Below the pieces are notes generated by a model. It ran no database searches. It was given only the letters and a program-made list of their open reading frames with translations, and was not told the DNA's origin. The translations under genes and the position numbers were made by a program. Shown here piece after piece: positions 1 to 15,580 of a stretch of DNA of 64,000 nucleotides (position 1 is the stretch's first letter; every line of letters starts with the position of its first letter). Origin of the DNA: Rhodothermales bacterium (GTDB taxonomy: Bacteria > Bacteroidota > Rhodothermia > Rhodothermales > VXPQ01); the NCBI GenBank assembly GCA_022821845.1, contig JAJECT010000023.1, positions 1 through 64,000 of the forward strand, written 5' to 3'.

Positions 1-503
1 TCCAGCGTGTTCGAGACGCGGTGCGAAAGCACCTTGCGGCTCTTCCAGTCGATTACGGCTACGAGATAAAGAAAGCCGCGCTCCATGGGTATGTACGTAA
101 TGTCCGCCGCGTAGACCTGGCCCGGTTCTGTGATCTTCATCGTTTTAAGCAGGTAGGGGTAAATCTTGTGGCCCTCTCCAGGAGAGGACGTGCGCCGCTT
201 CGGGTAGATGGCCCGCAATCCCATAAGCCGCATAAGGCGTACGACGCGGCTTCTCGCCACCGTAAGCCCGCGCGCTTCGAGCAGGCTCTTTATCGTGCGC
301 GAGCCGCTCGTCGGACGATCCATGTAGATGCGGTCGATCTCTCTCATGACGGCGAGGTCCTCCGCGCTTACCCCTTTGGGGCGATAGTACGCCGTGGAAC
401 GGCTCAGCGCCAAGAGCGCGCACTGCCGAACGATAGACAAGCGGTGCTCGCGATTGATCTGGCCCCTGCGCTCGGCTACAGGCCGCGACCGAGCGCCTTC
501 GAT
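1..503 (-). CDS. IS3-family transposase OrfB (DDE integrase), 3' end outside window
   Basis: The frame is open from the frameshift site at 503-509 to the window edge, about 167 codons, with no stop. It contains an HTH_21-like region (REIDRIYMDRPTSGSR) and the start of the rve/DDE integrase fold (VYAADITYIPMERGFLYLV, where the D of AADITYIP is the first catalytic acid). No convincing ATG is present near its start and a TGA lies just upstream in frame, so production as an OrfA-OrfB fusion is the likely route. The remaining catalytic residues lie beyond the edge, so integrity cannot be judged. Confidence 0.8.
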   Translation of the reverse strand, partial: MEGARSRPVAERRGQINREHRLSIVRQCALLALSRSTAYYRPKGVSAEDLAVMREIDRIYMDRPTSGSRTIKSLLEARGLTVARSRVVRLMRLMGLRAIYPKRRTSSPGEGHKIYPYLLKTMKITEPGQVYAADITYIPMERGFLYLVAVIDWKSRKVLSHRVSNTL

Positions 504-769
504 AAAAAATCATTCTCGATCAGAAGCTCCCCTATCTTGGACTGAAGCGTCTTGACATGCTCGTCGCGCTCGGCGGCGGACACGACGCGGCCTCGTCGGA
601 ACGAGTCCGCCATCAGGTCGACGGCCTGCCTCTTCCAGGACTGTATCTGGTTCGGATGCACTTCGAAGCGGGCGGCGAGCTCGGCTATCGTGCCGTCGCC
701 GCGAATGGCGGCATGGGCCACCCTCGCCTTGAAGTCGGGACTGTGGGTTCTGCGGGTGCGTTTGGGCAT
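476..769 (-). CDS. IS3-family transposase OrfA (HTH protein)
   Basis: This 97-residue protein is the DNA-binding subunit of an IS3-type transposase and recognises the element's ends. Residues 1-60 hold a basic N terminus and an HTH_Tnp_1-type helix-turn-helix (the IAELAARFEVHPNQIQSWK-like core). A short leucine-zipper-like helix follows (LQSKIGELLIENDFL), used for multimerisation in this family. The ATG has a good ribosome site, GGAGGT, a few bases upstream on the minus strand. The stop lies about 25 bases beyond a slippery heptamer, as expected for a gene that also makes an OrfAB fusion by -1 frameshifting. It appears intact. Confidence 0.85.
   Translation of the reverse strand: MPKRTRRTHSPDFKARVAHAAIRGDGTIAELAARFEVHPNQIQSWKRQAVDLMADSFRRGRVVSAAERDEHVKTLQSKIGELLIENDFLSKALGRGL
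503..509 (-). promoter_or_regulatory. Programmed -1 frameshift heptamer T_TTT_TTA
   Basis: Read on the minus strand, the zero-frame OrfA codons are GAT TTT TTA TCG. The heptamer T TTT TTA fits the X_XXY_YYZ rule exactly, and a -1 slip leads straight into the OrfB frame (ATC GAA GGC). Most IS3 members use A_AAA_AAG-type sites; this one has the same heptamer as the HIV-1 gag-pol site. A downstream stimulatory stem-loop was not worked out. Confidence 0.6.
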
Positions 770-828
770 GGAATACCTCCAGTGGGTTGGTTGGATTGGA
801 ACAAGGTCGCAATCCTATACCTTAAAAG

Positions 829-848
829 CCCAAAATCCTGTTCAGACA
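829..848 (-). repeat. Possible right terminal inverted repeat of the IS3 element
   Basis: On the minus strand the sequence starts TGTCTGAACAGGATTTTGGG, about 60 bases upstream of the OrfA ribosome site. It has the 5'-TG start usual for IS3-family ends. The partner repeat is outside the window, so this is a suggestion based on position and the TG terminus only. Confidence 0.3.
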
Positions 849-945
849 ACCCGAACCACCTCTGTATTCTACATAAAAAATTGATGATCCGATTAACGCG
901 CTACAGGCAATAGCGTCCATGCGATCAGTTTAGGAGATAGCCCCC

Positions 946-1941
946 ATGAAACTCCGCCGAAAAGAAATCAATGTTTTCTCCATGTCCGCGCTGGATTTAT
1001 TTGCATCCGGCATGGGGGCTTTTGTGCTGCTTGCGGTGATGGCGTTGCCGTTTTTTCCAAACACCGGCGATTCGCAAGAGCGCATTGAAGATATCAAAGA
1101 AGAACTTTCGCAGGCGCAGGCGGAACGCGACGCCGCTACAGAGCGGGTGAGTAGTCTCGAACAAGCGCTGTCGCAAATACAGCACGACGACAACGTTCGG
1201 GAAGTTCTTCAGCAGGCGCTTAACGACGCGCTGCAAGAACTCGAAAATGCCCGCCAGAAAACGCGCGAGCTACAAGCAGCGCTGAACAACGCGGAAAACC
1301 GGGCAAACAGCCTGGAAGAGGCGTTGGTTCATGCGAAAATGCCGTCGCTCGATATCGTGATTTGTCTGGACGTGACGGCCAGCATGACCGAGCAGATAGA
1401 GGGTCTGAAGCGCGAAATTTCTGTGTTGGCGGAGATACTGAATCGCCTGGCGCCTTCGGCGGGTATCGGACTCGTTGCATTCGGGGACCGCACATGGATG
1501 CAACCTATTCATATTCAGAATATTGTGCCCACATCAAACCTGCAACGCATCGAGTCTTTCATTCGTCAGCTTGAGCCAAATATGGATCCGCAAGCTTTTC
1601 AGAATCGGGATGGGCCAGAAATGCTGGCAACGGCCCTGGAACGGGGTATTGCACTGAACTGGCGCCCGGACAGCCAGCGGCGGTACGTGATTGTTGTGAC
1701 GGACAATGCAGCGTACCCGGAACGGGAGCAAGCCGCTCTTCAAGCAGCGCGATGGTTTGCCTCTGCGCAGGGGCGGTACGTTGCCACCGTCAGGGCCAAT
1801 TTCGTGCCGTTTATTTCGGATCGCCAGGCTGCCGACAGGTTTTTGCCCGAACTTGCCAGAGCAGGCAACGGACAATTCGTCGACGCCGCGGGAGGCGAAT
1901 CCATGATCGGCAGTTTGCTGCTGGCGATTTTGGGAACATAA
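946..1941 (+). CDS. Membrane-anchored vWA-domain protein with coiled coil
   Basis: A 331-residue protein. Residues 1-15 are short and basic, and about 16-38 form one membrane helix (LDLFASGMGAFVLLAVMALPFF). The segment before and through this helix resembles the N terminus of MotB/ExbD-like partners. A glutamate/glutamine-rich coiled coil covers about 45-130. The rest is a von Willebrand A fold: a MIDAS-like DVTAS starts at residue 142 (a DxTxS variant of DxSxS), and TDNAAY could supply the later metal ligand. The expected role is metal-dependent protein-protein interaction in the periplasm or at the membrane. It is the first gene after the IS element, and a channel partner (MotA/ExbB-like), common for such proteins, is not seen. 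It may belong with the kinase at 7.8 kb, but that is inference. Confidence 0.75.
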   Translation: MKLRRKEINVFSMSALDLFASGMGAFVLLAVMALPFFPNTGDSQERIEDIKEELSQAQAERDAATERVSSLEQALSQIQHDDNVREVLQQALNDALQELENARQKTRELQAALNNAENRANSLEEALVHAKMPSLDIVICLDVTASMTEQIEGLKREISVLAEILNRLAPSAGIGLVAFGDRTWMQPIHIQNIVPTSNLQRIESFIRQLEPNMDPQAFQNRDGPEMLATALERGIALNWRPDSQRRYVIVVTDNAAYPEREQAALQAARWFASAQGRYVATVRANFVPFISDRQAADRFLPELARAGNGQFVDAAGGESMIGSLLLAILGT

Positions 1942-2037
1942 AATCATGCGGAGTGCTCCCCCTGTTGGCGCAAAGGGTTGCAGCATATTCCGGCGCGGCA
2001 TATATTCCTCTCCCCCGAGTGAAAATATAGCGGCTCT

Positions 2038-3198
2038 ATGTCCCCCAAAGACCACTGTAACTATGCAATACCCTCCCTTGCACTGATTCTTTTCGCGCTG
2101 GCGTGGCCTTGCGCGGCACAAACACAGGCAGGAGCGGCATTTGAAACGCTGGCGCGAGCGCATGAAACGGCAGCAGAGGCTTCAGAGACGGAAAAAAAGA
2201 GGGTGTGGAGAGAAAGGGCCTGGCAAGCGCGAGAGGCTATGGTGCAATTATTAGGCTCAGTGGCTTTGGGAGAACAGGTTTCGTTTGCGCAAGAATGGGC
2301 TGCTTTTTCGGAGGGATCGGCTGTGTCGGCGAAGCTTTCTGAGGATATTCACCGAGCGAATTTATGGGAACGCGCCGCGAGAACGTACAAAGAGGCGGCA
2401 AAGGCATTGGCAGAAGCGCAGCAACGGGCACAGGAAAGGGAAGTGGCAGCGCAACGGGCACAAGCGGAGGCACAACGACAGGCGCGGGAAAGGGAGGCGG
2501 CAGCGCGGCGAGCGCGGGCGGCGGCGGAAGCGCAACAACAGGCGCGAGAAAGGGAAGCGGAAGCGCGACGGGCGCGGGCAGCGGCGGAGGCGAAACGACA
2601 GGCACGAGAAAGGGAAGCGGCAGCGCGACGGGCGCGGGCAGCGGCAGAGGCGCAACGACGGGTGCGGGAAAGAGAAGCGGCAGCGCGACGGGCGCGAGCG
2701 GCGGAGGAGGCGCAACGCAGATTCGTAATGGATCTCAAATATGCGCCGGGACGGTTTGACCTGAACGGAGAAAATGTATCTTTCCCTTTGGGTATTTATT
2801 ACTCTATGGGCATGAAAAAGAAATCTTATTCGTTTTTTTGGCCATTAACTTTGCATTATAAAAAAAATATTGATAACAATGATAATAATATACGTGAATA
2901 TATTATATTTACAGGCATTGGAGCACGATATTATATTCACGAATTTTATACTTCTGCTTCGATGGGTGTGGATTTTTATTTATATGATGACATAAATTCA
3001 TATAATTACATAAATATGAATGCATTTGCGATAGAATTAAAAACGGGGTTTAGAATCAATCCATTGGAATTTTCGATTGGTTTTCGGGAACGATTTTATG
3101 AAGAAAATGCTGTCTGTACCCGTTGCAATGATACGTCTTATTTTCTCTTTCCATCGGGGCGTGGAATTATTGTGTCATTTGGCATTCATTACTATTGA
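2038..3198 (+). CDS. Exported coiled-coil repeat protein with barrel-like C-terminal domain
   Basis: A 386-residue protein of unknown function. Residues 1-27 look like a signal peptide ending near CAAQTQA. About 35-120 are helical. Residues 122-228 are an Ala/Arg/Glu-rich coiled coil built from 20-residue repeats (RAREREAAARRARAAAEAQR-like, encoded by 60-bp units). From about residue 230 the composition flips: codons become very AT-rich and the protein alternates aromatic and polar residues (IYYSMGMKK, GARYYIHEFY, IIVSFGIHYY), like a small beta barrel or beta-sandwich ending in an aromatic residue. The sharp base-composition break at about 2725 suggests that a transferred domain was joined to a local repeat region. 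It follows the vWA gene on the same strand with about 95 bases between. Confidence 0.6.
   Translation: MSPKDHCNYAIPSLALILFALAWPCAAQTQAGAAFETLARAHETAAEASETEKKRVWRERAWQAREAMVQLLGSVALGEQVSFAQEWAAFSEGSAVSAKLSEDIHRANLWERAARTYKEAAKALAEAQQRAQEREVAAQRAQAEAQRQAREREAAARRARAAAEAQQQAREREAEARRARAAAEAKRQAREREAAARRARAAAEAQRRVREREAAARRARAAEEAQRRFVMDLKYAPGRFDLNGENVSFPLGIYYSMGMKKKSYSFFWPLTLHYKKNIDNNDNNIREYIIFTGIGARYYIHEFYTSASMGVDFYLYDDINSYNYINMNAFAIELKTGFRINPLEFSIGFRERFYEENAVCTRCNDTSYFLFPSGRGIIVSFGIHYY
2401..2720 (+). repeat. 60-bp tandem repeat inside the coiled-coil gene
   Basis: Units of exactly 60 bases start near 2401, 2461, 2521, 2581 and 2641, with a partial unit from 2701. The first is the most divergent and the later ones are very similar. 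Each encodes 20 residues, so copy-number changes keep the frame. The GC-rich AGCGCGACGGGCGCG core is the most conserved part. Confidence 0.85.
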
Positions 3199-3296
3199 CG
3201 CCCTCTCTATCGAAATGTTTCGTTACGCCGATCAAGAAACCCAAGCAGTCCAAAATACGGTTATTTTCCTATATAATTCCCATCAGATTTAAGGGT

Positions 3297-3431
3297 TTAG
3301 CATGCAGCCAGTCTCTTGAGCAGGTAAGGTTCCATCCCGCGATTGCCCTTGCCACGGTTACAATGGCCGCAGAGCAATTGCCGGTTTTCAATGTGATCCG
3401 TCCCCCTTTGTTCCCCATGAAGGGTGTCCTC
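3297..3431 (-). pseudogene. HNH endonuclease C-terminal remnant
   Basis: In one minus frame the sequence reads EDTLHGEQRGTDHIENRQ followed by LLCGHCNRGKGNRGMEPYLL, then stops at TAA. The DHIEN...LLCGHCNRGKGNR pattern is the conserved end of the HNH domain found in HNH nucleases and in HNH-fused DNA methyltransferases. An in-frame TGA sits immediately upstream and no start is available, so only about 44 codons remain. The upstream minus-strand DNA does not continue the domain in a single frame. I regard it as a dead fragment, possibly of a restriction-modification gene once near the Gabija pair. Confidence 0.6.
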
Positions 3432-3557
3432 TCACCTGTGTAAGTTTGGTTAAGTTTCGTCTGGTATTCTGTCTCCATAGAGTATGACGGACTGGTTGAG
3501 CGCGTCCTTCCAGGTCTTCACGGGCCGCGTCCATTTCTTCGATGCCTCGTTCACTAT

Positions 3558-3582
3558 AAAACCGGTATTTTTCGCCGGTTTT
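3558..3582 (-). terminator. Candidate bidirectional terminator downstream of gajB
   Basis: AAAACCGG and CCGGTTTT are perfect inverted repeats around a 9-base loop. Each strand shows a hairpin flanked by As and Ts. It lies about 140 bases past the gajB stop, so it could end that operon. The stem is only eight base pairs. Confidence 0.4.
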
Positions 3583-3721
3583 CCGCCCTAGCCTTACGGG
3601 CTGGGCCACAGCCGACAAAGAACCTACGCCTTTTTCTGGTGAAAACGTCTCTCAAGATAAAGTTACACAATTTTCTGGACATCCCTCAATTTGGGCATGT
3701 CCAGAAGCAGACGGTGCCTGA

Positions 3722-5680
3722 TCAGACAATGGTCATGGGTGCCGTTGGCTGACTTCCATTGCGCAAAGCGTCGTTGCTCGACAAGTTGAGCAGGTCCATT
3801 TCTTTGAGGAATCGGGATGGTTTCCTGAGCCGCCCATTGTACGATTCTGCTCTGGAAAGAATCAAATGCTGCTTGGTGCGCGTGATGGCCACGAAGCAAC
3901 CTCGGCGTTCTTCCTCGATCGCTGCGTTGCCATTTTCTTTCTGAATACTGTGCCAGGATGGCAAAATATCTTCCGCCATGCCAATCAAATAGACTGTATC
4001 GAATTCCAGCCCTTTCGCGCCATGAATGGTGGCAAGAGAAACAGCGCCCGATGCAGGAGCGGGTTCTTTGGAGCGCAATTCCATTTCTTGCAGAAACTGG
4101 TCAAGCGCGACAGACCCTCGAACTTGGCGAATTTCTCGCTCAATCCGGCGCCATGCGCTTACGTCATCCTTGAAGTCGTCATGCGCCGTATGGCGTTCGT
4201 CGAAAAACGCTATAATCTCGTTCACTGCGTCGAACAAGCGCATCTTTCCTGATGCAAGGCGCGCTACGGCCTCAACAGCAGGCAGGGTTGAAGGCTCTTC
4301 TTCGCGTACGGCGTCAACCCATGCCGCAAGTAGCGTGACCTGGTTTGTCTCCGAACGCGAAGACAGGTCCTCAGGCTCTACTCGCATGCCTGCGAAGTTG
4401 CAAAACATTTCATTCAACGCAGCCATGTTGCGACGATCCAGCGGACGATTGATCTGCTTCAAACAAGTAACCATCCAGCGCATTTGAGGCGACGCGAAGT
4501 CGTCTCGGCGGCCTAAAAGCGTGGTATCCACATTGAGGTTGCTGAATGCTGCCTTGAGAGTTTCCAGCATGGCTCGATTTCGCGCCAACACTATCGTATT
4601 TTTTCGCTCTTGCGGGTTGAGGGCAGCGATTTCTTGAGCGATGCCGGATACTTCCTCCTCGTCGCCTGGAAACACGCGACATTGAATTTGCGGTCTACTG
4701 TTTTGAGAGGCTGATTTGGCCGCTTCGGTAACCCGCCTTGAGGGAGTGCGCTGGACATTATACACGATGAGCCGGTTGGCGACCTCGACAATGCGTGGCG
4801 GGCATCGGAAATTCTCTGTGAGTTGTATGACGTCGCATCCGAAATCGGTGACCAAATTACGCAGGCGACGAACATTGGCGCCATTCCATTCATAGATAGT
4901 CTGATCGTCGTCAGCCACGGCGAACACCTGTCGAAAGCTGTCGCCCGCCATCAGGCGAAGCAAGGCGTACTGCGAGGTGTTCGTATCCTGGAACTCGTCA
5001 ATAAGCCAATATCGATAGATTGTCTGGTAGTGTCGCGCAAAAGCGGGATGCTCCAGGAGCTGACAGGCGCGGAAGATCAGGGAATTAAAGTCCAGTGCGT
5101 TGGATCGATGCAATTCTTCCTCGTAGAGCTGGTAGGCTTGTGCGATTCGTTCTACCGCCTTGGATGCTCCTCCATTTTTGCTAAGTAGATATTGTGGAGC
5201 CTGTTCAGGGCCGACCAGAAGATTCTTCAGCGCGTCGATACGCGGCAAAAGCCGGAGATCATTGCGTTCGTAATAATCGGATTGATGTCGTAGTGCATTT
5301 TCCAGCACGGCCTGCCGGTCAGCGGTACGAGAGTATATCTCGAAATTCGGTTTGATGCCGAGATGAACACCGTGCTGGCGCAACAACTGTGCGCAGAATC
5401 CGTGGAACGTGTTGATTTCGGCGCGCTCCTCGCCGCCAGGCGCCAGGGCGGCGATCCGGGTTTTCATTTCGTGCGCCGCCTTGTTGGTAAAGGTCAATGC
5501 AAGGATACGGAACCGCTCATCCAGAGATTCTTCAAGCAATCGGGCGACTCGGCAGGTGAGCACGCGCGTTTTACCGGAACCAGGTCCAGCCAGTACCAAC
5601 AAGGGACCGTCATTCCACTCGACGGCCTTGCGCTGCATTTCTGTCAGGTTATGAAGCGTTGTTGCATGAGTATCTGTCAT
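3722..5680 (-). CDS. gajB: Gabija protein GajB-like, UvrD/Rep-family helicase
   Basis: A 652-residue superfamily 1 helicase, the second component of a Gabija anti-phage pair. The motifs occur in order: Q motif LTEMQRKAV, Walker A AGPGSGKT near residue 31, TFTNKAAHEM, Walker B LIDEFQDT near 228, VADDDQTIYEWNGA, LTENFRCP, TIHGAKGLEFD near 550, and AITRTKQHLIL. In characterised Gabija, GajB binds the GajA nuclease ring and senses DNA or nucleotide state. It is longer than the classical GajB of roughly 500 residues, nearer to a full UvrD/PcrA. The ATG overlaps the gajA stop (TGATG), with a GTG just upstream as alternative. The overlap implies coupled translation. A stand-alone UvrD role is less likely given the partner. 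Confidence 0.85.
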   Translation of the reverse strand: MTDTHATTLHNLTEMQRKAVEWNDGPLLVLAGPGSGKTRVLTCRVARLLEESLDERFRILALTFTNKAAHEMKTRIAALAPGGEERAEINTFHGFCAQLLRQHGVHLGIKPNFEIYSRTADRQAVLENALRHQSDYYERNDLRLLPRIDALKNLLVGPEQAPQYLLSKNGGASKAVERIAQAYQLYEEELHRSNALDFNSLIFRACQLLEHPAFARHYQTIYRYWLIDEFQDTNTSQYALLRLMAGDSFRQVFAVADDDQTIYEWNGANVRRLRNLVTDFGCDVIQLTENFRCPPRIVEVANRLIVYNVQRTPSRRVTEAAKSASQNSRPQIQCRVFPGDEEEVSGIAQEIAALNPQERKNTIVLARNRAMLETLKAAFSNLNVDTTLLGRRDDFASPQMRWMVTCLKQINRPLDRRNMAALNEMFCNFAGMRVEPEDLSSRSETNQVTLLAAWVDAVREEEPSTLPAVEAVARLASGKMRLFDAVNEIIAFFDERHTAHDDFKDDVSAWRRIEREIRQVRGSVALDQFLQEMELRSKEPAPASGAVSLATIHGAKGLEFDTVYLIGMAEDILPSWHSIQKENGNAAIEEERRGCFVAITRTKQHLILSRAESYNGRLRKPSRFLKEMDLLNLSSNDALRNGSQPTAPMTIV

Positions 5681-7593
5681 CACGCCAATCCCCGAAGCTG
5701 CTCAATGGCATCGCGGAAGGCCGCTGGAGTTCGCGCCGCTAATTCAGAATTACACCGAATGCGCGTCGCCAGTTCCGCAGCGTACTTTGTCTTGCTGCTT
5801 CGCAGGCGGTGCAAGAGGGATTCGTCGTCCAGATTTTTCGCGTTTTCGCCGTCGATTCCCGCCAGCGTTTCGCGCAACTCGGGCCCGAGTCCGTCGGCAA
5901 CAAGCTGCTCCTCCAGATCGCCTTTGGGAAGGGTGCGACAACGCTTTTGTATCTCGGTGGACTCGAATCCTCGGTTCTGAATTTGCTTAATGAACTCGTT
6001 CCCCTTTTCGTCGCCGTCGAATACGGCGAGCCAGGGAATAGCCAATGCTCTTGCCAGCGCCGCAAAGATCGCTGGGCTGCCATTGTTCTGAGCGTCAATA
6101 ACCGAAACGCCATGCTGGTCAAGGTCGTAATCCAGGGCATGCGCAATGGCGTGCACGATAAGGTAATCCGCCTGCCCTTCAACGATCAGCCAGCGTTCCG
6201 CGAAAAAAATCTCCCCGCGCATACGCCGAGCGTACGTTTCCAGCGCTTGCAGTTCGTCGTCGGTTACATGTAGAGACGATTGCGCCCGCAGGTCGCAAAG
6301 ACGCGACGCAAGTTCGGCGCGGCGTTCATCTTGCCCACAGCATGAAAGCAGTTTGCGATAGAAATTTTCTTCGAGATTGCCATGAACTGTCAGTGTTTCC
6401 GAAGAAGGTTCGTAGGTCAGCTTTCCGCCCGATTGGGCGACTACGTCAACAAGGCCGTCCATTTCGGGAAAGGACACGAAGAAACTGGCCGGAAGCGAGC
6501 GCACCTCGGTCCCCTCCGTGGTCAGGCGAACAAGGCGAAGGTCGCGAAACGGGACATGCTGAACGAAGTATGGCGAATGCGTGGTGACGATCTTTTGGCC
6601 CGGTAACGCATTGATGTGACTCCACAACGTACGAACCGCTTGGGGATGCAGGTGCGTTTCTGGTTCTTCCAGGGCCAGCACAGGTTCGCTCCCCGGGGCG
6701 TACAATTCGTGCAACAGATGGTCGACGAATGCCTGAAAAAGGAAGATAACCGAAAGGCTCTGGATACCTTGGCCTTGACGCCTGAGCGGAAGCCATGGCA
6801 GGGCAGGTTCATTGCGAAGAATGATCTCGGCTCTTGAGAGGAGGTCCCAGGTCTTCAATGGAACCATCCGAAGGTCAAGTTCGCCTTCCTGATCGCGCGC
6901 CGCAATACTGGTCGTCTCCGACAAGGTTTCTGCGATTTGCCCCAGACGCGGGTCAGCCTTCAGGAGTTGCTCATTGAGCACGTCAAGATCCTGCAATATA
7001 CGAGACTCCAAGTCCGATGGGATATGCAGATCCTTGAGTAGACGGGTCCAGAATTGGGATGATCGAGCCGAGAACTCATCCCCCGCATCGCGCAATGCGC
7101 CGAGATAAAATACAGGCAGGTAACGCCAGAACCGTTCGAAATTGACTCTGCGGGCGGCGACCCCAACCAACGGCTCGCGATCCGCGGCCAAAAAACCCCA
7201 ACTCGGCTCGAAGTTTTCGGTGCCCGCGTTCCATGCGTAACGCACGCGCAGGGAGACTGAGCGATGACCGTCCAAATCCAACTGAACAATATCTCCAAGG
7301 TCTTCGGCTATCGTATCTGGCCATTCGCCGGGGCGTCTTTCCTCCGACTTCAGTTCGATACGTACGCCACTGGATTTCTTGGGATCGGTCGCCTCGTCGG
7401 CCATATGGATATCGTATTCGCTGAAACCGGTCCCACGCTGACCCCAGCGGCGTGTCAGCGCAATCCGAAGCGCGTCGAGAATTGCCGTCTTTCCAGCGTT
7501 ATTCGGTCCGACCAGGACGGTCGTCTCGCCAAGATCCATTGCCAGACGCCGAATGGATCGGAAGTTCTCGATTTCGATACGTGTTATGCGCAT
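5680..7593 (-). CDS. gajA: Gabija protein GajA-like, OLD-family ATPase/TOPRIM nuclease
   Basis: A 637-residue protein with the two-domain layout of OLD-family nucleases. The N-terminal SMC/RecF-like ATPase begins MRITRIEIENFRSI, with Walker A GPNNAGKT at residues 29-36 and Walker B LALEEPETHLHPQ near 305-316. A TOPRIM domain follows, with the acidic residue in LIVEGQADYL near 472 and the DGD of VFDGDEKG near 526-528. In known Gabija systems GajA is a sequence-specific DNA nicking nuclease restrained by nucleotides. I chose the ATG at 7593 because it gives the family N terminus; a start 39 codons upstream adds unrelated residues. It is divergent from the kinase gene with about 200 bases between. 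Confidence 0.88.
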   Translation of the reverse strand: MRITRIEIENFRSIRRLAMDLGETTVLVGPNNAGKTAILDALRIALTRRWGQRGTGFSEYDIHMADEATDPKKSSGVRIELKSEERRPGEWPDTIAEDLGDIVQLDLDGHRSVSLRVRYAWNAGTENFEPSWGFLAADREPLVGVAARRVNFERFWRYLPVFYLGALRDAGDEFSARSSQFWTRLLKDLHIPSDLESRILQDLDVLNEQLLKADPRLGQIAETLSETTSIAARDQEGELDLRMVPLKTWDLLSRAEIILRNEPALPWLPLRRQGQGIQSLSVIFLFQAFVDHLLHELYAPGSEPVLALEEPETHLHPQAVRTLWSHINALPGQKIVTTHSPYFVQHVPFRDLRLVRLTTEGTEVRSLPASFFVSFPEMDGLVDVVAQSGGKLTYEPSSETLTVHGNLEENFYRKLLSCCGQDERRAELASRLCDLRAQSSLHVTDDELQALETYARRMRGEIFFAERWLIVEGQADYLIVHAIAHALDYDLDQHGVSVIDAQNNGSPAIFAALARALAIPWLAVFDGDEKGNEFIKQIQNRGFESTEIQKRCRTLPKGDLEEQLVADGLGPELRETLAGIDGENAKNLDDESLLHRLRSSKTKYAAELATRIRCNSELAARTPAAFRDAIEQLRGLA

Positions 7594-7791
7594 GTGCGTT
7601 GCGATTTGCCAACGTGTATAAATTATGCCCATCCACGCTGTGCCAACACGAAACAGGGCATCCGCGTTCCCGTAAATGTCCGTTGCGACGCCTGTTTGGG
7701 TCACGGGCAATTAACCCGGCGAAGCAGTACATTTAGGCATTCCAGCGCATTGACCGGATTCTACAGCCCCCCTTGCCAATCCCTCAAGCCC

Positions 7792-9033
7792 ATGTCCATT
7801 CTGGTTCTGCTTATCGCCGCCGTGCACGCAATCCCCGTTTTGCTGGCGGCGCGCATCACGAAAAGCAGAAAAGCCGTAACGAGGGTTGCGCAAATTACAA
7901 GCATCGTCGCCATCGTAACCGGTGCCATCGTGTTTACGATCGTGGACCTGCTTGCAATATGGATAGCATGGAAATGGGTGGTATCCAGGCTGCCCGAACC
8001 GGAACCAAACCTGCATCAGGTCCAAATCCAGTCGCCGCAAAACGGCACTGGAATGTCGCGCATTTTGCCCGAACCGGCGCAACCCCGCCTCGCCTTGCAA
8101 GCGCAAAACCGCCTGCACGCAGAAGGCGCATCCCGCAATGGATTGCCGAGTGGCGCAATATTGAACGGCGTCTATACCGTGGAAGAGGAACTTGGACACG
8201 GCGGCGTGGGCATTGTGTAACAGGCAAGGCATCGGGAACTGGGACCTGTCGCCATCAAGGAATATCTGCCCGCAGAACTGGCCGTACGAGAAGGGCAATC
8301 CGTGCACCCACTGAACACAAATGCGGGCGACCTGTTCGAAGAAGGGCTGGATCGATTTCTGGACGAAGCCCGGCAACTCATCCGGTTCCGAACGCATCCG
8401 AACATCGTCTCCTGCCGGGATTTCTTTCGAGAAAACGGCACGGCCTATCTGGTCATGGACCTTGAAGAGGGCATGACGCTTTCGGCGTTGCTGTTCGCCC
8501 GCGAGGCCGAGGCGCGCTCTTTCGACAAAGAGGACCTGCTCACCGTGACGATCCCCCTGCTCGAAGGGCTGGACCAAGTGCACGAGGCCGGGGTGCTGCA
8601 TCGGGACATCAAGCCCGCCAACATATTCATTCGGCGGAAGAACAACAGCCCGGTGCTTATAGATTTCGGGGCCGCTAAACAGGAATTCGCCCTGCATAGC
8701 AAGTCGCTCGCGCCCTTCAGCCAGGGCTACGCGGCGCTTGAACAAGTGGCCGAGGGCACCTTGGGGCCCTGGACAGACATGTACGGGATCGGGGCGACGA
8801 TGTGGCGCATGGTGGCGGGTGGAAACAAACCCTTCGATCCGCCGAACCCCGTGCGGGTAGAGCGTCGCGCACACGCCGTATTTCAGGGAGAATCGGATCC
8901 GATGCCGTCGGCGCAAACGCTGGGCAAGGACAGATTTTCTCCGCATATTCTGGAGGCTATCGACCAGTGCCTGATGCTGCGGGAAGGCGACCGCGTACAG
9001 AATTGCCAGGAATTGTTGCAAAGGCTGGGGTAG
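7792..9033 (+). pseudogene. Membrane Ser/Thr protein kinase interrupted by an in-frame TAA
   Basis: A kinase of about 413 codons in one frame with a single TAA at 8218-8220. Residues 1-60 contain two hydrophobic helices (ILVLLIAAVHAIPVLL; IVAIVTGAIVFTIVDLL). A polar linker leads to the kinase fold: Gly loop GHGGVGIV, then the stop exactly where related kinases have Tyr, then VAIKEYLP (ATP lysine), HRDIKPANI (catalytic loop), DFGAAKQ (Mg-binding) and GPWTDMYGIGA. Everything after the stop is intact and undegraded, so a recent mutation, readthrough or a sequence error are all possible. The mutation is one base (TAT or TAC to TAA). Without readthrough the product lacks its catalytic part. Such kinases often pair with vWA, FHA or phosphatase genes. 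Confidence 0.8.
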
Positions 9034-9187
9034 GCTTGGAGACGCCTTGTTGCTTCATGGCCTCGGCGACCTGAAAAGCCAGTACGCGCTTTACGGCCTG
9101 TTCAGTGGTTGCCTCATAAGTACCCTCTTCCTTGAGATAATCGTCAAAGAATTGTCCAGGGGAGCCTTTCTCTATGTCGCGGGTCAT
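9034..9187 (-). pseudogene. Truncated HigA-like antitoxin
   Basis: The ATG at 9187 begins a protein whose first 51 residues fit a Xre/HigA-type antitoxin (FDDYLKEEGTYEATTEQAVK, RVLAFQVAEAMKQQGVSK). In this family a helix-turn-helix should follow GVSK. Here similarity stops at about 9035, next to the kinase stop codon, and the frame then runs antisense through the kinase. The DNA-binding domain is therefore lost. The start overlaps the end of the toxin remnant by ATGA, the usual toxin-first HigBA order. Confidence 0.65.
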
Positions 9188-9372
9188 TTCAGGCCTCTCA
9201 TTCTTTTAATCGCCAGCTGGAGATCAGATTTTGGCATCTTCCGGGATTTCTTGATAAACCCGTGAAGCAAGATCATCTCACCTTCATGGTTGCAGAACAA
9301 AATCCGGGCGATCCTGTTCCCTGGAAGGTTTGTCCGCACTTCCCAAAGCCCTCCGTGGCCCCGTATGGAACG
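9184..9372 (-). pseudogene. HigB/Gp49-like toxin remnant
   Basis: The last 62 codons read GHGGLWEVRTNLPGNRIARI, then LFCNHEGEMILLHGFIKKSR and KMPKSDLQLAIKRMRGLK. This is the C-terminal half of a RelE-superfamily HigB/Gp49-like mRNA interferase. A TGA at 9373-9375 closes the frame upstream. Another frame (EKAYQGCAYDV and onward) shows no clear continuation, so the N terminus is lost or frameshifted. Together with the truncated antitoxin this is a dead toxin-antitoxin locus at the right border of the island. Confidence 0.6.
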
Positions 9373-9477
9373 TCATAGGCGCAACCCTGGTACGCTTTCT
9401 CCAGGCGCGCCTAAACCTCTCCGGCTATACACGCCGCTGCGTTACCGGTTCCAGTAGACCCCCTCCCAAAAAAAACA

Positions 9478-10752
9478 TCACCCCGCCAACCCCTGCACCA
9501 CCGCGTCGCACACCATTTTTCCTGCATCCGTGAGGCGGAGGCAGCCGTTTCCTATCCACTCGATATACCCTTCCTGCTCAAGCGAAGCGAGCAAATCCGG
9601 CTTGTCGGACAAAATATCCCTGCCGTACGAGCGTTTCAGGCGGCGGACGTCCAGCCCGTCCGACGTGCGAAGCCGCAAAAACACATACTCGTCCGCCAGC
9701 ATCCCCAACGACAGCGCGTCCACCTCTTCTACCGGAGGCATGCGCTGCTCCACGAGCGCTTCATACTTGCGCAGATTGGCTTCGTTGCGCCAGCGGCGAG
9801 CGCCCGCGCCGGTTTTGCGGGCCGATCCGTTCTCCATAGGCGTCTGGACCGCCCCATTACTTGATCCGTTACGCGCCTCTCCCGCATCTGCGCCGGCCCG
9901 TTCCAGAGCCCCCGCCGCTTCGCCCGCCTCCCCCCGCCCATCCCACCAGAACGAATGCGCGGACGGCCCGAATCCAAGATAATTGGCGTGCCGCCAGTAG
10001 ACCTCGTTGTGCCGGGAGCGCCTGCCCGGCAAAGCGAAACTCGATATTTCGTAGTGTTCGTACCCCTGCTCCCGCATAAAATCCATCGCGAACTGAAAGC
10101 GCGCCGCGAATTCCTCGTCCGCCGCAGGCGTTACGCGCCCCTGCATCGCCATCTTGTAGAGGGGCGTGCGTTCCTCTATCGTCAGCCCGTACGCAGAGAG
10201 ATGCGGCACGCCCATCCGGGCCAGTTTCTGCACATTGGCGCACCAGTACTCTTCCGGCTGATCGGGAATGCCGAAAATAAGATCGACGGACAGGTTATCG
10301 AACCCCGCCTGCTGCGCCCGGTCTATCGCCTGCGCGGCCTGCTCCGGCGTATGGCTCCGGTTCAGAAACGTCAGGTCCGCCTCGTAAAAAGATTGCACCC
10401 CGATGCTCAACCGATCGAACCCGAAAGAACGAAGCGCGCGCAGGTAGTCGGGGTCCGCGTCGTCCGGATTCATCTCCAGCGTCGTTTCGCGCACGTCGCC
10501 GGTCTGGAAAACGCGATGGATCTCGCCGAGCAAATCGCCCAGGGCGCGGGCGGACAGCAGCGAGGGCGTGCCGCCCCCGAAATAAATGGTCTCAATGGGT
10601 TCGCGCGAACCGTATTCCGCCCCGTAATGCGCCAGTTCGGCGCGCATGGCTTCGAGAAACGGCGCCCGGGACGACCGCGTCGTCGTAAAATAGAAATCGC
10701 AGTAGATGCAGCGTTGCGCGCAAAAAGGGATATGAAGATACAGGGACGCCAC
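9478..10752 (-). CDS. hemW: Radical SAM heme chaperone/coproporphyrinogen III oxidase-like protein HemW
   Basis: A 424-residue HemW-family protein. The radical SAM cluster motif is CAQRCIYCDF (Cx3CxxC) near residue 11, which favours the HemW branch. GGGTPS follows near 75, and HNEVYWRHANYLGFGPSAHS shows the HNxxYW motif typical of HemW rather than true HemN. HemW binds heme and delivers it to respiratory enzymes; many entries are still named coproporphyrinogen oxidase. Residues about 268-320 form an Ala/Gly/Glu-rich low-complexity linker that normal HemW lacks, followed by the C-terminal winged-helix domain (DGLDVRRLKRSYG). It starts immediately after the stop of the upstream outer-membrane gene on the same strand. 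Confidence 0.9.
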   Translation of the reverse strand: MASLYLHIPFCAQRCIYCDFYFTTTRSSRAPFLEAMRAELAHYGAEYGSREPIETIYFGGGTPSLLSARALGDLLGEIHRVFQTGDVRETTLEMNPDDADPDYLRALRSFGFDRLSIGVQSFYEADLTFLNRSHTPEQAAQAIDRAQQAGFDNLSVDLIFGIPDQPEEYWCANVQKLARMGVPHLSAYGLTIEERTPLYKMAMQGRVTPAADEEFAARFQFAMDFMREQGYEHYEISSFALPGRRSRHNEVYWRHANYLGFGPSAHSFWWDGRGEAGEAAGALERAGADAGEARNGSSNGAVQTPMENGSARKTGAGARRWRNEANLRKYEALVEQRMPPVEEVDALSLGMLADEYVFLRLRTSDGLDVRRLKRSYGRDILSDKPDLLASLEQEGYIEWIGNGCLRLTDAGKMVCDAVVQGLAG

Positions 10753-11274
10753 TCAGAAGATGAGGCCAATCCGAAAAGGCGCCAAAAAGCCCAGCCTGTC
10801 GCTGCCGATGATAAGCGTGGGACTTATTTCGTAGAACATGGCGGATTCCCCGAAACCATGCACCCGCCCGACCCCGATATGAATGGTGGGGCCGCTCAAG
10901 TCCTTGTTCCCTGCAAGCGGAAGGTACCCCCCCATTCCGAAAAAGAAATACGTGGCGCGCAACCGGCTGGGAGGCGGCGTAATAATGAGCGAAATCTGCG
11001 GATCGAAGAGATAATCGGCGCCTTTCCACCCCTCGAACACAAATCCAGTGAGTCCGAGCTCCAGCGCAGTGGAGATGTCCGCGTTAATCGGGATGGCGGC
11101 CCGCCCCCGAAAACCCATGCCCACGCCGTGCTCGGTGCTGTACAGGGTATTCAGGCTAATTCCGAATTGGGAGTTCCTGGCCGGGGCCTCGTCCTGCGCG
11201 CGCGCGAGCGGGACCGCGGCCTGGACAATGAGCGCCAGGAAGGCGAATGCGAGAGAAAAACGAATGATTTTCAT
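10753..11274 (-). CDS. Putative small outer-membrane beta-barrel protein
   Basis: A 173-residue protein with a clear signal peptide (hydrophobic residues 5-22, cleavage after ARA). The mature part has alternating beta-strand patterns (FGISLNTLYSTEHGVGMGFRG; LRATYFFFGMGGYLPLAG) and ends in Phe (FRIGLIF), a usual signal for barrel assembly. No specific family is recognised. Its stop directly abuts the hemW start, suggesting co-transcription, and it is divergent from etfB. Confidence 0.6.
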   Translation of the reverse strand: MKIIRFSLAFAFLALIVQAAVPLARAQDEAPARNSQFGISLNTLYSTEHGVGMGFRGRAAIPINADISTALELGLTGFVFEGWKGADYLFDPQISLIITPPPSRLRATYFFFGMGGYLPLAGNKDLSGPTIHIGVGRVHGFGESAMFYEISPTLIIGSDRLGFLAPFRIGLIF

Positions 11275-11380
11275 GGATCAAGCGGCGTAGCGGGCTACAT
11301 GAACAGGCATAAGCACAGGCATAATACGAACACGAGACGATTCTCGTCGTTCATGGGATACTCCACGAAAGATAGCAGAT

Positions 11381-12160
11381 ATGAAGTTCATTGTTTGCAT
11401 CAAACAAGTGCCCGACGTGACGTCGCTGTTGCGCGTCGAGAACGGGCGCATCGATACGAGCGCGGGGCGCATGGCGCTGAATGCGTTCGACGCCTCGGCG
11501 GCGGAAGGCGCGATCGCCTTTGCCGAACGCTGCGGCGGAGAAGTGCATGTCGTGCTGGCGGGCCCGCCCGAAGCCGAGGGAGCGCTGCGCAAGGCGCTGG
11601 CTATGGGGGCGGCGGCGGGCGTTCGCCTTCAGGTCCGGGAGGGCGACGCGCCTCCCGTCGGACAGGCTTGCGCGCAGATGCTTGCGGATCATTTAAGGAC
11701 GGAAACGTTCGATGCGATTCTGTGCGGCAAGCAGGCGCAGGATACCGACGCCGGGGTAACGCCCGCCATGCTGGCCGCATTGCTGGGTTTGCCCTTCGTC
11801 GGAAACGCCATTGCGCTGGAGCCGGACCCGGACGGACGCAGCGACAACCACCTGCTGGTCACCCGGCAGGCGGACGCGCGCCAGGAAATTACGCGGATAC
11901 AAACGCCCTGCGTCGTCTCCTGCTCCAACAATATGTGCGACCCGCGCATTCCAAACATACGAAGCGTCATGGCGGCGCGCAAAAAACCAATCCGTACGAA
12001 AATCATGGAAACGCCCGTCGGATTGCCCGCCCTCGCGGTACAACGCTACGAACCCATGCCGGGCCGCCCGCCGGCGCGCATGGTGGACGAACCATGGGAC
12101 GAAGCGCTCGACGTCCTGGCCCCCTATGTAAAGATACCAAGCGGTTCGCCCGCGCCATAG
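11381..12160 (+). CDS. etfB: Electron transfer flavoprotein subunit beta
   Basis: A 259-residue ETF beta subunit that binds AMP and, with EtfA, carries electrons from acyl-CoA and other flavin dehydrogenases to the quinone pool. It starts MKFIVCIKQVPDV, the family N terminus. It contains an adenine-nucleotide-binding core (ILCGKQAQDTDAGVTPAMLA) and a recognition-loop-like LLVTRQADARQEI. Only one base separates it from etfA, so the two are translated together. No ETF:quinone oxidoreductase or acyl-CoA dehydrogenase is adjacent. Confidence 0.93.
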   Translation: MKFIVCIKQVPDVTSLLRVENGRIDTSAGRMALNAFDASAAEGAIAFAERCGGEVHVVLAGPPEAEGALRKALAMGAAAGVRLQVREGDAPPVGQACAQMLADHLRTETFDAILCGKQAQDTDAGVTPAMLAALLGLPFVGNAIALEPDPDGRSDNHLLVTRQADARQEITRIQTPCVVSCSNNMCDPRIPNIRSVMAARKKPIRTKIMETPVGLPALAVQRYEPMPGRPPARMVDEPWDEALDVLAPYVKIPSGSPAP

Positions 12161-12161
12161 C

Positions 12162-13154
12162 ATGGCCCGCCTCCTTGTTTTCGTCGAAATTCGGAAAAGG
12201 CACATCACGCGCCCGTCGCTGGAAGCCCTGTCCCGGTGCCGGGAAATCGGCGGAAAAAGCGTGGCCGCCGCCATCGCGTCCGACGCGCCCGCCGCCTCGT
12301 TCGAAGCATTGGCCCGCTACGGGATAGAAGAGGCGTTCGTCGCGACCGACCCGGTGTTTGCGCCGGACAGCAGCATTCCGCAGGGCGCCCCCCTCGCCGC
12401 CGCGCTGGTCCGCATCGCCGAACAGGCTGCCCCCGACGTCGTCGTGCTTCCCTCCGGGGAGACCGCGCGGGAAATCCTCGGCGCGCTGGCCGTGCGCATG
12501 GCGGCCCCCGCCCTCCCCGACGTATCCCGATTTGACGTGTTCGAGGGCGGCGTGGAAGCCGCGCGTCCCGTCTTCACAGCCGGATTCATGGCCCGCGTAC
12601 GGGCAGAAGGCGCGCCCGTGCTCGTCTCGCTGCGCGGCGGTTCGTACGCCGCCTCGGAACATCCGGCCGCGTCTCCCTTGCGCATCCGGGACGTGCCCTT
12701 CGCCTTCGACGAGAAACAGTCCAGAACAACGCTCCACAAGGTGTCGGCGGGGACTTCCGGGGGCGTCGACCTGGCCGAAGCCGCCGTCGTGGTGGCCGCC
12801 GGGCGCGGGGTGCGGGACGAACAAGGCAAACGCCTGATCGAAGAACTTGCGGCGCTGCTCGGAGCCGCCGTCGGGGCGTCGCGCGGGGCCATCGAAGCCG
12901 GGCTGTTCCCCGCCGCTTCGCTGATCGGGCAAACCGGCAAAACCGTTTCGCCGGACGTATACGTTGCGGTGGGTATTTCAGGCGCCCTGCAACATGTGGC
13001 GGGGATGGCGGACAGCCGCACGATCATCGCCGTCAACAAGGACCCCGACGCGCCCGTTTTTCGCCACGCCACCTACGGAATCGCAGGCGACCTGTACGAA
13101 ATTTTGCCCGCCTGGATCAAGGCGCTAAAGAAAAAAGCCGCCGCAAGCAAATAA
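12162..13154 (+). CDS. etfA: Electron transfer flavoprotein subunit alpha
   Basis: A 330-residue ETF alpha subunit that binds FAD. The C-terminal FAD domain is clear: VVVAAGRGVRD, then GLFPAASLIGQTGKTVSPDVYVAVGISGALQH with the conserved GQTGK.V.P..Y.A.GISGA.QH pattern, and IIAVNKDPDAPVF.ATYGIAGD. The N-terminal half has the usual ETF alpha/beta fold. It follows etfB with a one-base gap. The soluble heterodimer acts in the cytoplasm and links fatty-acid or amino-acid oxidation to respiration. Confidence 0.93.
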   Translation: MARLLVFVEIRKRHITRPSLEALSRCREIGGKSVAAAIASDAPAASFEALARYGIEEAFVATDPVFAPDSSIPQGAPLAAALVRIAEQAAPDVVVLPSGETAREILGALAVRMAAPALPDVSRFDVFEGGVEAARPVFTAGFMARVRAEGAPVLVSLRGGSYAASEHPAASPLRIRDVPFAFDEKQSRTTLHKVSAGTSGGVDLAEAAVVVAAGRGVRDEQGKRLIEELAALLGAAVGASRGAIEAGLFPAASLIGQTGKTVSPDVYVAVGISGALQHVAGMADSRTIIAVNKDPDAPVFRHATYGIAGDLYEILPAWIKALKKKAAASK

Positions 13155-13169
13155 CGCCATAGAAAGAAA

Positions 13170-13194
13170 CGACAGGGCGCATATAGCCCCGTCG
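13170..13194 (+). terminator. Candidate terminator after etfA
   Basis: CGACAGGGC and GCCCCGTCG can pair with one mismatch around a 7-base loop, and CCTTTCCC follows. It is 15 bases past the etfA stop. The T run is weak, so this is tentative. Confidence 0.35.
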
Positions 13195-13215
13195 CCTTTC
13201 CCGGAATATATTTAT

Positions 13216-13470
13216 GGATACTCTGATCAAAACCACTTCGCTCAGCGCGTCGCTACTGCCCGCCAAAGAACGTCATGCCCGGATCATTGAAATCAGCAGA
13301 AAACACCGTAGATTCGGTATGTCTTGGACGCGACGCGCCCTTCGGGAGGCTGCGAGGGGCACGCTGGCTGTGTCATTCCTCATTACGTGGGGCCTGCCAC
13401 GCTGCTTCGTCATTCCTTGCCAGCGCACCCCTCGCAGCCTCTGAGCTTCGTGGATTTAATCAGAGTATCC
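13216..13470. repeat. MITE-like element with inverted ends (full copy)
   Basis: The 255-bp element starts GGATACTCTGATCAAA and ends TTTAATCAGAGTATCC, which is an inverted terminal repeat with one mismatch. An inner inverted repeat pairs CTGCGAGGGGCACGCTGG near 13350 with CCAGCGCACCCCTCGCAG near 13425. No transposase is encoded. Partial copies occur at 25330-25432 (right half, inverted) and 45982-46022 (left end, inverted). This explains most of the 395-base gap between etfA and the next gene. Confidence 0.75.
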
Positions 13471-13549
13471 TTATCGTAATATATCCCGATATATTCTGGA
13501 CCGTACGTCTGCAACCCCTTGGCTTGTAGCAAGGAATTGCATGCAAAAC

Positions 13550-13891
13550 TTACGCCGCGCCGGCCTTCTTGCGCTTCCGGCGAGGCGGCTTGGTGGCGCT
13601 CAGGGACACATACGCGCGGAAGACCTTCGGTTGGTCCGTCTTGCGCGCAGAAATCCTGAAATATCTGCCCGGCTTTTCCGCATGGCGCTCAAGCCAGGAA
13701 CGCAAATTGGTCACGTCCGTCGCGGAACACGGCTCAATGCGCAAAACCTGCTCGCCTTTAAGGGCGTCGATATGCTTCATGAGCGGTACGAACTTGGAAA
13801 CGCGCCCGGCGGGCGTCGGCGTTTTGGCGCGAAGTTTGGCCAAAAGCGCTTCGGCTTCGTCCTTGTAGATCGTGGTTGTGTAGAATGCCAT
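13550..13891 (-). CDS. Small basic protein of unknown function, paralogue of its upstream neighbour
   Basis: About 113 residues starting MAFYTTTIYKDEAEALLAK; a longer start at 13957 adds 22 unrelated residues. The protein ends in a Lys/Arg tail (KPPRRKRKKAGAA), suggesting nucleic-acid contact. The core RVSKFVPLMKHIDALKGEQV, LRIEP, VTNLRSWLERH and RYFRISARK aligns position by position with the 96-residue protein encoded just upstream, so the two are likely a tandem duplication. No known family is recognised. It is followed by the MITE. Confidence 0.55.
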   Translation of the reverse strand: MAFYTTTIYKDEAEALLAKLRAKTPTPAGRVSKFVPLMKHIDALKGEQVLRIEPCSATDVTNLRSWLERHAEKPGRYFRISARKTDQPKVFRAYVSLSATKPPRRKRKKAGAA

Positions 13892-13974
13892 AAGGAATGG
13901 ATGGTTCTTGCAATAAGGAGTAGATGTCTGCGCGCGAGGCGGCGGTACATGCGACAAGGCCCGCCGCGGCCCCG

Positions 13975-14265
13975 TCAGGCAGCGAGAAAGATGAATCCGG
14001 TGAACGTTCCGGCTTTGCCGGTGGACGCCGTCTTGAGCACGTATTTGCTCTCAAAGTTTTTCCGAAGATACTGGCGCAAAGGCTGCACTTCCTTCTTGTC
14101 CAGCTTGAGTTTGATCACCGTATCTCCGGTCAGGCGCCGCACCGAGCGCCCGATAGAGTCGTACTTGGACGTTCGACCCGACCGCCCGCCGCCGGAAATT
14201 TCCGTACGGAATTTTTCGGGAGATAAAACTTCGACAAAAAACTGACCGGCTTTTTTCTTGGCCAT
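13975..14265 (-). CDS. Small protein of unknown function, paralogue of its downstream neighbour
   Basis: A 96-residue, Lys/Arg-rich protein beginning MAKKKAGQFFVEVLSPEKF. The core RTSKYDSIGRSVRRLTGDTV, IKLKL, VQPLRQYLRKN and KYVLKTASTGKAG matches the neighbouring 113-residue protein in order and spacing (RxSK, a hydrophobic helix, G-[DE]-x-V, LR-x-[WY]-L, [KR]Y). Both lie on the minus strand in succession. The function is unknown; the basic character and small size would suit a nucleic-acid-associated protein or regulator. Confidence 0.6.
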   Translation of the reverse strand: MAKKKAGQFFVEVLSPEKFRTEISGGGRSGRTSKYDSIGRSVRRLTGDTVIKLKLDKKEVQPLRQYLRKNFESKYVLKTASTGKAGTFTGFIFLAA

Positions 14266-14665
14266 TGTTTACGCGGTACCGTTTTGATGAGTGATAGCGA
14301 TGTTATCGTGAACCCTCTGGAAGGCATACGCTCCGCAGGCAGGTCATAATCCGGGAAAATCCCGGCACAGCGCATGAGTATACATAATGCAACACAAATA
14401 CACAAGGCAATACATTGTAAAGTATATAATTTTTTTCTGCATACGCCCTTCCTTGTCCGCCGCGCTCCCTGTGGATACGCGGGGATCCTCTGATATTTAT
14501 TCCTGTAGGATACGCTCGCGAAGTCCGCAAGGCGTTCCGGCGCCGTGGCCGAAACGGGGCCGCCTCGCCGCAGCCGCAAACCAGCCGCCTCGCCGCCCGC
14601 CTCGAAAAAATCGCCTTGCGCGCTTTTCGCGCTTACGCTCATACGTCTTCCGTCCGCTGCGCCCC
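14266..14665. other. Divergent intergenic region of about 400 bases
   Basis: It lies between the minus-strand small-protein pair and the plus-strand DUF192 gene. It contains a short perfect hairpin CCGGGA-AAA-TCCCGG at 14351-14365 without a T tract, and an AT-rich patch at about 14385-14435 (TAAAGTATATAATTTTTT) that may hold promoters for either side. I see no gene; open frames here continue into DUF192 without protein-like character. Confidence 0.4.
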
Positions 14666-15172
14666 ATGCGATATATATGCCTTCTCCTGCTGGTCGCCAC
14701 GCTTGCGGCGTGCGGCGGCGACCCCGCTTCCCGCGCCACGCAGCGCGCAGACGACGCCTTCCCCGATATCCCCTTCCGGGACGACGGCGACCTGACGTTC
14801 TTCCAGGGCGACACGGAAATATTGACCATCGACATCGAAATCGCCGAGTCGGACTCCGAGCGCGCGCGCGGACTCATGCAACGCCCCTCCTTGCCCGAAA
14901 AAAGCGGCATGCTGTTCCTTTTCGAGCAGGAAGCCATGCAAACGTTTTACATGGCGAACACGCCGCTTGCGCTGGACCTCCTGTTCGTGGACCGCGATTC
15001 CATGGTCATCGATATAGACAAATACAACCGTCCCTTCACCTCCACGCTCATTCGCTCGGATGCGCCGGCGCAGTACGTGATCGAAGTGCCCGCCGGGTTC
15101 GCGGATATCTACGGCCTACTCGAAGGCGAACGCGTCCATTGGACCCGGCGCGAGGCGGGCTCCGACGGATAA
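14666..15172 (+). CDS. DUF192-family lipoprotein
   Basis: A 168-residue protein. The first residues MRYICLLLLVATLAACGG form a lipoprotein signal with lipobox LAAC. The rest is a DUF192 domain: DIEIAESDSERARGLMQR, then MLFLFEQEAMQTFYMANTP, LDLLFVDRD, and the C-terminal YVIEVPAGF. DUF192 proteins are small exported or periplasmic beta proteins of unclear biochemical role. The start was chosen at the ATG giving the signal peptide; frames further upstream are arginine-rich and not protein-like. It is convergent with the A-type carrier gene. Confidence 0.8.
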   Translation: MRYICLLLLVATLAACGGDPASRATQRADDAFPDIPFRDDGDLTFFQGDTEILTIDIEIAESDSERARGLMQRPSLPEKSGMLFLFEQEAMQTFYMANTPLALDLLFVDRDSMVIDIDKYNRPFTSTLIRSDAPAQYVIEVPAGFADIYGLLEGERVHWTRREAGSDG

Positions 15173-15179
15173 CAAGCGC

Positions 15180-15515
15180 CTACAGCCCGAAGCTTTCGCC
15201 GCAGGCGCAGGTCCGGGCCGCTTGCGGATTGGCGAAATGAAACCCGCTCCCTTCAAGACCATCCGTGAAATCCAGTTCCGAGCCGTCGAGACACGCGGCG
15301 CTGCGGCGGTCAAGCACGACGGATAACCCGTCCGCCTCGATCAATTCGTCGTCGGCCCGGCGAACCGTATCCCAGCCGAGGTCGTAGGTAAGGCCCGAAC
15401 AGCCTCCGGGCGCGACGGCAAGGCGAAGCATGGTTTCGGACAAATTCACGCCCTCGCCTGCGGCAACCGCAAGCAGCTGCTTCAGGGCGCGCTCGGTAAT
15501 GCGTATGGATTCCAT
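15180..15515 (-). CDS. A-type iron-sulfur carrier (HesB/IscA/SufA family)
   Basis: A 111-residue Fe-S carrier. It contains ITERALKQLLAVA, the first conserved cysteine in APGGCSGLTYDL near residue 39, and the C-terminal pair in CACGESFGL near 104-106. These three cysteines hold a transient cluster for transfer to apoproteins. It is divergent from the suf operon with a short shared promoter region, consistent with joint use. It could be SufA or ErpA-like; I do not assign a subtype. Confidence 0.88.
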   Translation of the reverse strand: MESIRITERALKQLLAVAAGEGVNLSETMLRLAVAPGGCSGLTYDLGWDTVRRADDELIEADGLSVVLDRRSAACLDGSELDFTDGLEGSGFHFANPQAARTCACGESFGL

Positions 15516-15580
15516 AGGAAGAAAAAAGAAAGGTTCTCGTAGCGCCCGGCGAAAACAGGAACGAAAAGCCGCCGCTTCGG

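Follow-up and report, generated by a model that had tools for sequence, protein, structure and literature searches.

The 64,000-base window analysed here, which forms the start of a 79,342-bp contig in a genome of 2.8 Mb, contains an ORF (2038–3198, + strand) encoding 386 aa from an ATG start. An ORF check showed the frame to be open throughout, and yet its base composition changes abruptly midway, raising the question of how the two halves came to be joined, and what kind of protein they form. The initial annotation proposed that foreign DNA had recently become fused to a local repeat, and that the product was a surface protein of variable length. The account that we favor, with confidence that we place midway on the scale, is that the ORF encodes an outer-membrane protein, in which an exported helical arm, which may act as a tether or spacer, is joined to a predicted 8-stranded barrel, and that this design predates the genome in which it was found.

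Domain structure of the ORF product

The domain layout was taken from an AF2 model. The protein starts with a putative signal peptide (residues 1–27; 2038–2118, +), with a cleavage site picked by eye between AWPCAA and QTQ. This is followed by an Ala-rich helical segment (residues 28–131; 2119–2430, +), which is mainly non-repetitive, contains the motif LWERAA, and is similar to a family of exported helices in the sister species G001. Next come about four copies of a 60-bp (20-aa) tandem repeat (2464–2717, +; typical unit AEAQRQAREREAAARRARAA), and after the array an aromatic C-terminal half, predicted from AF2, VIA-align, Foldseek and the strand gaps to form an 8-stranded OmpA/OprF-type β-barrel (2725–3195, +).

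Scans of the product against Pfam, NCBIfam and PADLOC gave no usable family, with no match at all for the helix-barrel protein in PADLOC, and the literature searched contained no description of the protein. Two matches were rejected: Presenilin in Pfam (E 0.0022, under its cut-off), which fell on the low-complexity helix, and TrlF (E 0.0083, far under the cut-off). A promoter and terminator scan returned four promoter-like sites and no terminators.

Base composition along the reading frame

The GC content is 0.555 at 2038–2430, 0.724 at 2431–2724 and 0.323 at 2725–3195, compared with 0.603 for the window, in agreement with the abrupt change near 2725 that the initial annotation had described within one frame. 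The lowest-GC 300-bp stretches of the window fall here, and the lowest value over 290 bp elsewhere is 0.452. A single split fits best 45 bp into the barrel, at 2770, and a three-segment fit gives an AT-rich stretch (2719–3292, not assigned to a strand; GC 0.334) that extends ~94 bp past the stop codon.

Expected values were obtained by re-coding each part with the codon usage of the core-like and of the island ORFs of the window. For the repeat part, island usage predicts a GC content of 0.742, close to that observed (z −1.0), and this part is GC-rich because of its Ala/Arg/Glu content. For the barrel, the expected GC content is 0.443 (z −9.9 for the observed value), and its GC3 is 0.28, as against 0.61 with island or 0.73 with core usage, so that its amino acids do not account for the composition. 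A sharp break in one ORF thus need not signal recent fusion: the GC-rich half is set by its amino acids, and the AT-rich half alone is truly anomalous.

A milder drop, at the same place, is present in the helix-barrel gene of the sister species (GC 0.634 in the helix, 0.473 in the barrel), in which the GC3 of the helix fits the expectation (0.619 versus 0.634) and that of the barrel is low (0.488 versus 0.640). Among barrels that stand alone, GC3 is low in G004 (0.497) and G005 (0.452), and slightly low in G002 (0.583). With island usage, z ranges from −3.6 to −5.0 for the sister, G004 and G005 barrels, and is −1.5 for G002. The AT-leaning composition is therefore partly a trait of the barrel family.

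A tentative explanation, which we consider possible though rather doubtful, is that the gene is a mosaic, in which the 3′ part of an older helix-barrel gene (~2719–3292, including DNA after the stop codon) recombined with an AT-rich allele of an unsampled bacterium. The low GC3 of the barrel beside a repeat that fits island usage would be consistent with such an exchange, as would the continuation of the AT-rich stretch beyond the stop codon, and the 36% identity of the sister barrel set against 94% DNA identity in the shared flanking genome. However, no donor was found among 395 phylum genomes, 114 order genomes, plasmids, phages and viral contigs. The lowered GC3 of the sister, G004 and G005 barrels also counts against it, intergenic DNA is often AT-rich anyway, and the composition does not change sharply where the domains meet, as the position of the best single split indicates.

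The abruptness of the break, together with the window beginning at a contig end and adjoining an IS3-type transposase gene, would also suit an assembly chimera in a metagenome bin. We regard this as highly improbable, as one reading frame runs through both halves and the arrangement recurs in the independent genome of the sister species.

Relatives of the barrel and of the helix-barrel design

A barrel-only query matched the sister species G001 (E 3.4e-8), where the ORF at L002:682–1989 encodes a signal peptide, an Ala-rich arm and a barrel with 36% identity to that of the window. The two genomes are close, with 98% identity in pyruvate dehydrogenase beta and, in those parts of 9402–17000 that both possess, 94% identity at the DNA level. 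A profile made from two sequences (A1) matched 4 of the 114 order genomes at E ≤ 0.01, all in the same genus, and 3 of the 395 phylum genomes at E ≤ 0.001, the window's own genome being counted in both cases. A scan of genome contigs yielded one locus among 302 candidate stretches, on the G001 contig, and no barrel relatives were found in plasmids, phages and viral contigs. Two weak barrel matches, G032 at E 0.186 and G044 at E 0.464, were set aside; the G032 locus has no barrel gene.

Searching for the barrel with other N termini revealed armless barrels in three congeneric species (G002, G004 and G005), and none in G003 of the same genus. Those of G004 and G005 hit Pfam OMP_b-brl (PF13505) past the gathering cut-off (9.1e-9 and 4.6e-13), and were tied to the armed barrels by an hhalign comparison with profile A1 (probability 88.8, E 2.5e-6). 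The existence of armless barrels suggests that the barrel can do without an arm. PF13505 matches 111 of 113 genomes order-wide; the general family is common, and hence uninformative on the fusion.

The composition break and the tandem repeat are both real, as expected if a foreign barrel had recently been joined to a local repeat. However, the same architecture occurs in the sister species, with a barrel of only 36% identity and a drop in composition at the same place, and the join is therefore probably not a new accident. The differences between repeat copies and the predicted location of the repeats, described below, also argue against a recent fusion with surface display, which we consider very unlikely. 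The best-supported account is instead that the helix-barrel design is older than the window's genome. The recurrence of both break and fusion in G001 comes close to the vertical conservation across distant relatives that would contradict a recent origin, though it concerns one relative of the same genus, and not many distant ones. Simple vertical descent is not evident either, as the G001 copy lies at another site and is only 36% identical although the genomes are close. Because the genomes are close and yet the barrels are so divergent and differently placed, the barrels must belong to one family whose members either evolve quickly or were acquired separately.

Predicted fold and topology of the barrel

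The full-length AF2 model, computed from a two-sequence alignment and of low confidence (mean pLDDT 57), contains helices at residues 25–76 and 83–224, followed by eight strands. The barrel modelled alone, also from a two-sequence alignment, has eight strands with a pLDDT of 70.7 and a pTM of 0.67. VIA-align ranked OprF (Z 16.3, 2.2 Å over 128) and OmpA (Z 15.8, 2.9 Å over 148) at the top, and Foldseek ranked NspA (8e-5) and OmpX (1e-4). An 8-stranded up-and-down barrel of the OmpA type is thus predicted, which bears out the earlier suggestion that the second half resembles a small outer-membrane barrel. The region 2725–3195 had no Pfam match at E ≤ 1, PF13505 included, and comparison with PDB sequences gave none of relevance (one ribosomal match, E 0.69). 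Autotransporter and OmpT barrels appearing in the fold searches came from the low-confidence full-length model, and were not taken as membership.

The gaps between successive strands in the barrel model are 9, 2, 5, 2, 5, 2 and 14 residues, alternating between long loops and short turns. In barrels of this kind, the short turns face the periplasm. The even number of predicted strands, together with this alternation, places the N-terminus, and hence the repeats, in the periplasm. Going by the model, the small barrel probably sits in the outer membrane, and the helical arm probably lies beneath it in the periplasm, contrary to the surface-exposed repeat originally proposed. The longest outer loop, the predicted extracellular loop 4 (3103–3144, +; ENAVCTRCNDTSYF), has a CxxC motif inside, which is absent from the G001 protein.

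Repeat array and helical arm

TRF detected a 60-bp unit in 4.2 copies with 87% matches (2464–2717), in frame with the ORF. The four 20-aa copies correspond to residues 143–222, preceded by a degenerate copy at 123–142, and residues 1 to ~122 are non-repetitive. The clean copies (n = 4) differ pairwise at 5–10 of 60 bases, with 34 of 50 differences over the six pairs being synonymous. This predominance of synonymous changes indicates that the array has been preserved as a protein sequence, and did not arise just recently.

The first half had been described as a 20-residue tandem coiled coil. The repeat itself is real, but it does not make up the whole of the first half, and the analysis gives no support for a classical coiled coil. 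A helix is predicted for the repeat region; the hydrophobic power of residues 131–228 is 0.77 at the heptad period of 3.5, with the best value (5.54) at 3.34, and no period exceeds the shuffle 95% level of 6.07. The G001 helix does show a heptad-like period of 3.54, with a power of 15.1 versus a shuffle level of 6.8.

For comparison of the arms, an N-module profile was made from three sequences (the G001 barrel protein, C2 and C32), leaving out C25 of the window's own genome (G000) and C4a, C4b, C14, ds and C32b of G001. Residues 28–131 of the window protein scored 23.4 bits against this exported-helix profile, with shuffled sequences giving a mean of 10.1 and a maximum of 20.7 (0/500 reaching the score). 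Adding the repeats removed the excess, as 17/500 and 41/500 shuffles then reached the score. The comparison of sequences suggests that the window arm and the G001-type arms share an origin. With the N-terminal region alone as query, 5 of 60 relatives matched at E ≤ 0.01, the own genome being one of them; low complexity was judged to explain the other four (E 1.5e-4 to 0.0067).

The G001 arm belongs to a group of exported proteins with Ala/Trp-rich helices; besides itself, it had seven matches at E ≤ 0.001, six in G001 (two overlapping at one locus) and one, with a lipoprotein-like start, on contig 25 of the window's own genome (C25). Loci of this family, in G001 and with one member in the window's genome, lie at L030:1396–1980, L031:1438–2085, L032:641–1234, L033:574–2094, L034:1381–1965 and L036:853–2874; the L031 copy appears frameshifted near its end.

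Comparison with known systems and proposed role

The predicted barrel shares its eight strands, short periplasmic turns and longer outer loops with OmpA, OprF, OmpX and NspA (OMP_b-brl clan). It differs from OmpA-type barrels in having an N-terminal helix of ~200 residues in place of a C-terminal OmpA domain, and in lacking a Pfam match. Domain II of TolA is a long, Ala-rich, charged periplasmic helix. The arm is likewise a long Ala-rich charged helix with short repeats, but it is joined to a barrel and not to an inner-membrane helix, and no TolA family match was found in Pfam or NCBIfam. Trimeric autotransporters (type Vc) have a short anchor contributing four strands per chain, and a surface coiled-coil passenger. 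The window protein has eight predicted strands per chain, and no anchor match in Pfam.

Comparison was also made with OmpM of Veillonella, SlpA of Deinococcus and FapF, using their published descriptions (PMC10628300, PMC6173795, PMC9388160). The OmpM and SlpA tethers, as presented there, combine a C-terminal barrel with an N-terminal periplasmic stalk, as the window protein is predicted to do. Both are trimers, SlpA having 30-stranded barrels and SLH domains, in contrast to the eight strands predicted here; no sequence relation to the window protein was found, and SLH had no match in Pfam at E ≤ 1. The amyloid transporter FapF carries an N-terminal periplasmic helical domain ahead of its barrel, described as a trimeric coiled coil, whereas the window protein has no heptads and eight predicted strands.

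By analogy with OmpM, SlpA and FapF, service as a spacer or tether is the likeliest use of the protein. As profile scans (Pfam, SLH at E ≤ 1) found no SLH or OmpA_C domain, tethering is guesswork. The first module would be the exported Ala/Arg/Glu-rich helical arm (residues ~28–224), and the second the C-terminal 8-stranded OmpA/OprF-type barrel (residues ~228–386). The arm, whose 142 residues would span ~21 nm as one straight helix, may act as a spacer or tether from the outer membrane, with its far partner possibly being peptidoglycan or a protein of the inner membrane or periplasm. Each 20-aa unit added or lost would shift its reach by ~3 nm. This copy of the gene is located next to hemW, in a segment that varies and carries defence genes, and the break in composition would reflect histories, or a codon usage, that differ between barrel and helix. 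If this account is right, the proteins known to combine a periplasmic stalk with a large barrel gain a small-barrel counterpart, in Rhodothermales. To our knowledge, the envelope of Rhodothermales has been little studied.

Alternatively, the barrel could be a FapF-like secretion channel for a co-encoded helical substrate, with the helix serving in the periplasm as an arm for oligomerisation or gating. Such a role would agree with the N-terminal periplasmic coiled coil reported for FapF, and with the second Ala/Trp-rich helical ORF directly downstream in G001 (L002:1967–2422). However, the pore of an 8-stranded monomer is too narrow, the window's helix gives no heptad signal, and the window has no comparable downstream ORF, 3722–5683 being GajB on the other strand. 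We consider a channel quite improbable.

A further reading, which we think unlikely, is that of a modular system restricted to the genus, whose exported Ala-rich helices occur free, lipid-anchored or joined to a small outer-membrane barrel, and whose genes sit in defence islands that can be exchanged. Recombination would swap the barrel half, and the arm would change in length through its unit repeats. The result would be a periplasmic ruler that can be adjusted, or a phage-related modifier of the outer membrane.

Genomic neighbourhood

The gene is flanked by a VWA protein (946–1941, +) and a complete-looking Gabija pair on the − strand (GajB, 3722–5683; GajA, 5680–7710), with a 4-base overlap and PADLOC E values of 4.6e-223 and 9.6e-252. 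The DNA beside hemW (window 1–9402) is a variable segment. Its 8.5-kb Gabija-bearing part (window 834–9402) had no DNA match in any of the four fetched stretches beside hemW (G001–G004), the G001 contig ending beside hemW in an IS3-type element, so that the far side lies beyond comparison. The name hemW was assigned presumptively from the protein sequence. The G001 helix-barrel gene lies near an integrase, an NB-ARC protein and a HicB antitoxin. With two cases as the basis, no functional link to defence is drawn.

The N-terminus of the VWA protein is weakly like MotB/ZorB (E 0.0087), and its close relatives among 60 genomes are in G038 and G056 only. Downstream of the barrel, a fragment at ~3310–3420 (−; ENRQLLCGHCNRGKGN) resembles the end of an HNH endonuclease, and is presumably a gene remnant, judging by its appearance. 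Farther along, a dispersed, MITE-like element of ~260 bp (13211–13472) has 17-bp inverted ends (13220–13236 and 13450–13466); it is missing at the matching G001 site and has at least ~40 matches elsewhere in G001 (40 of 218 candidates scored). At 57663–57813, the window contains 12-bp tandem repeats similar to CATGTATGGTGT.
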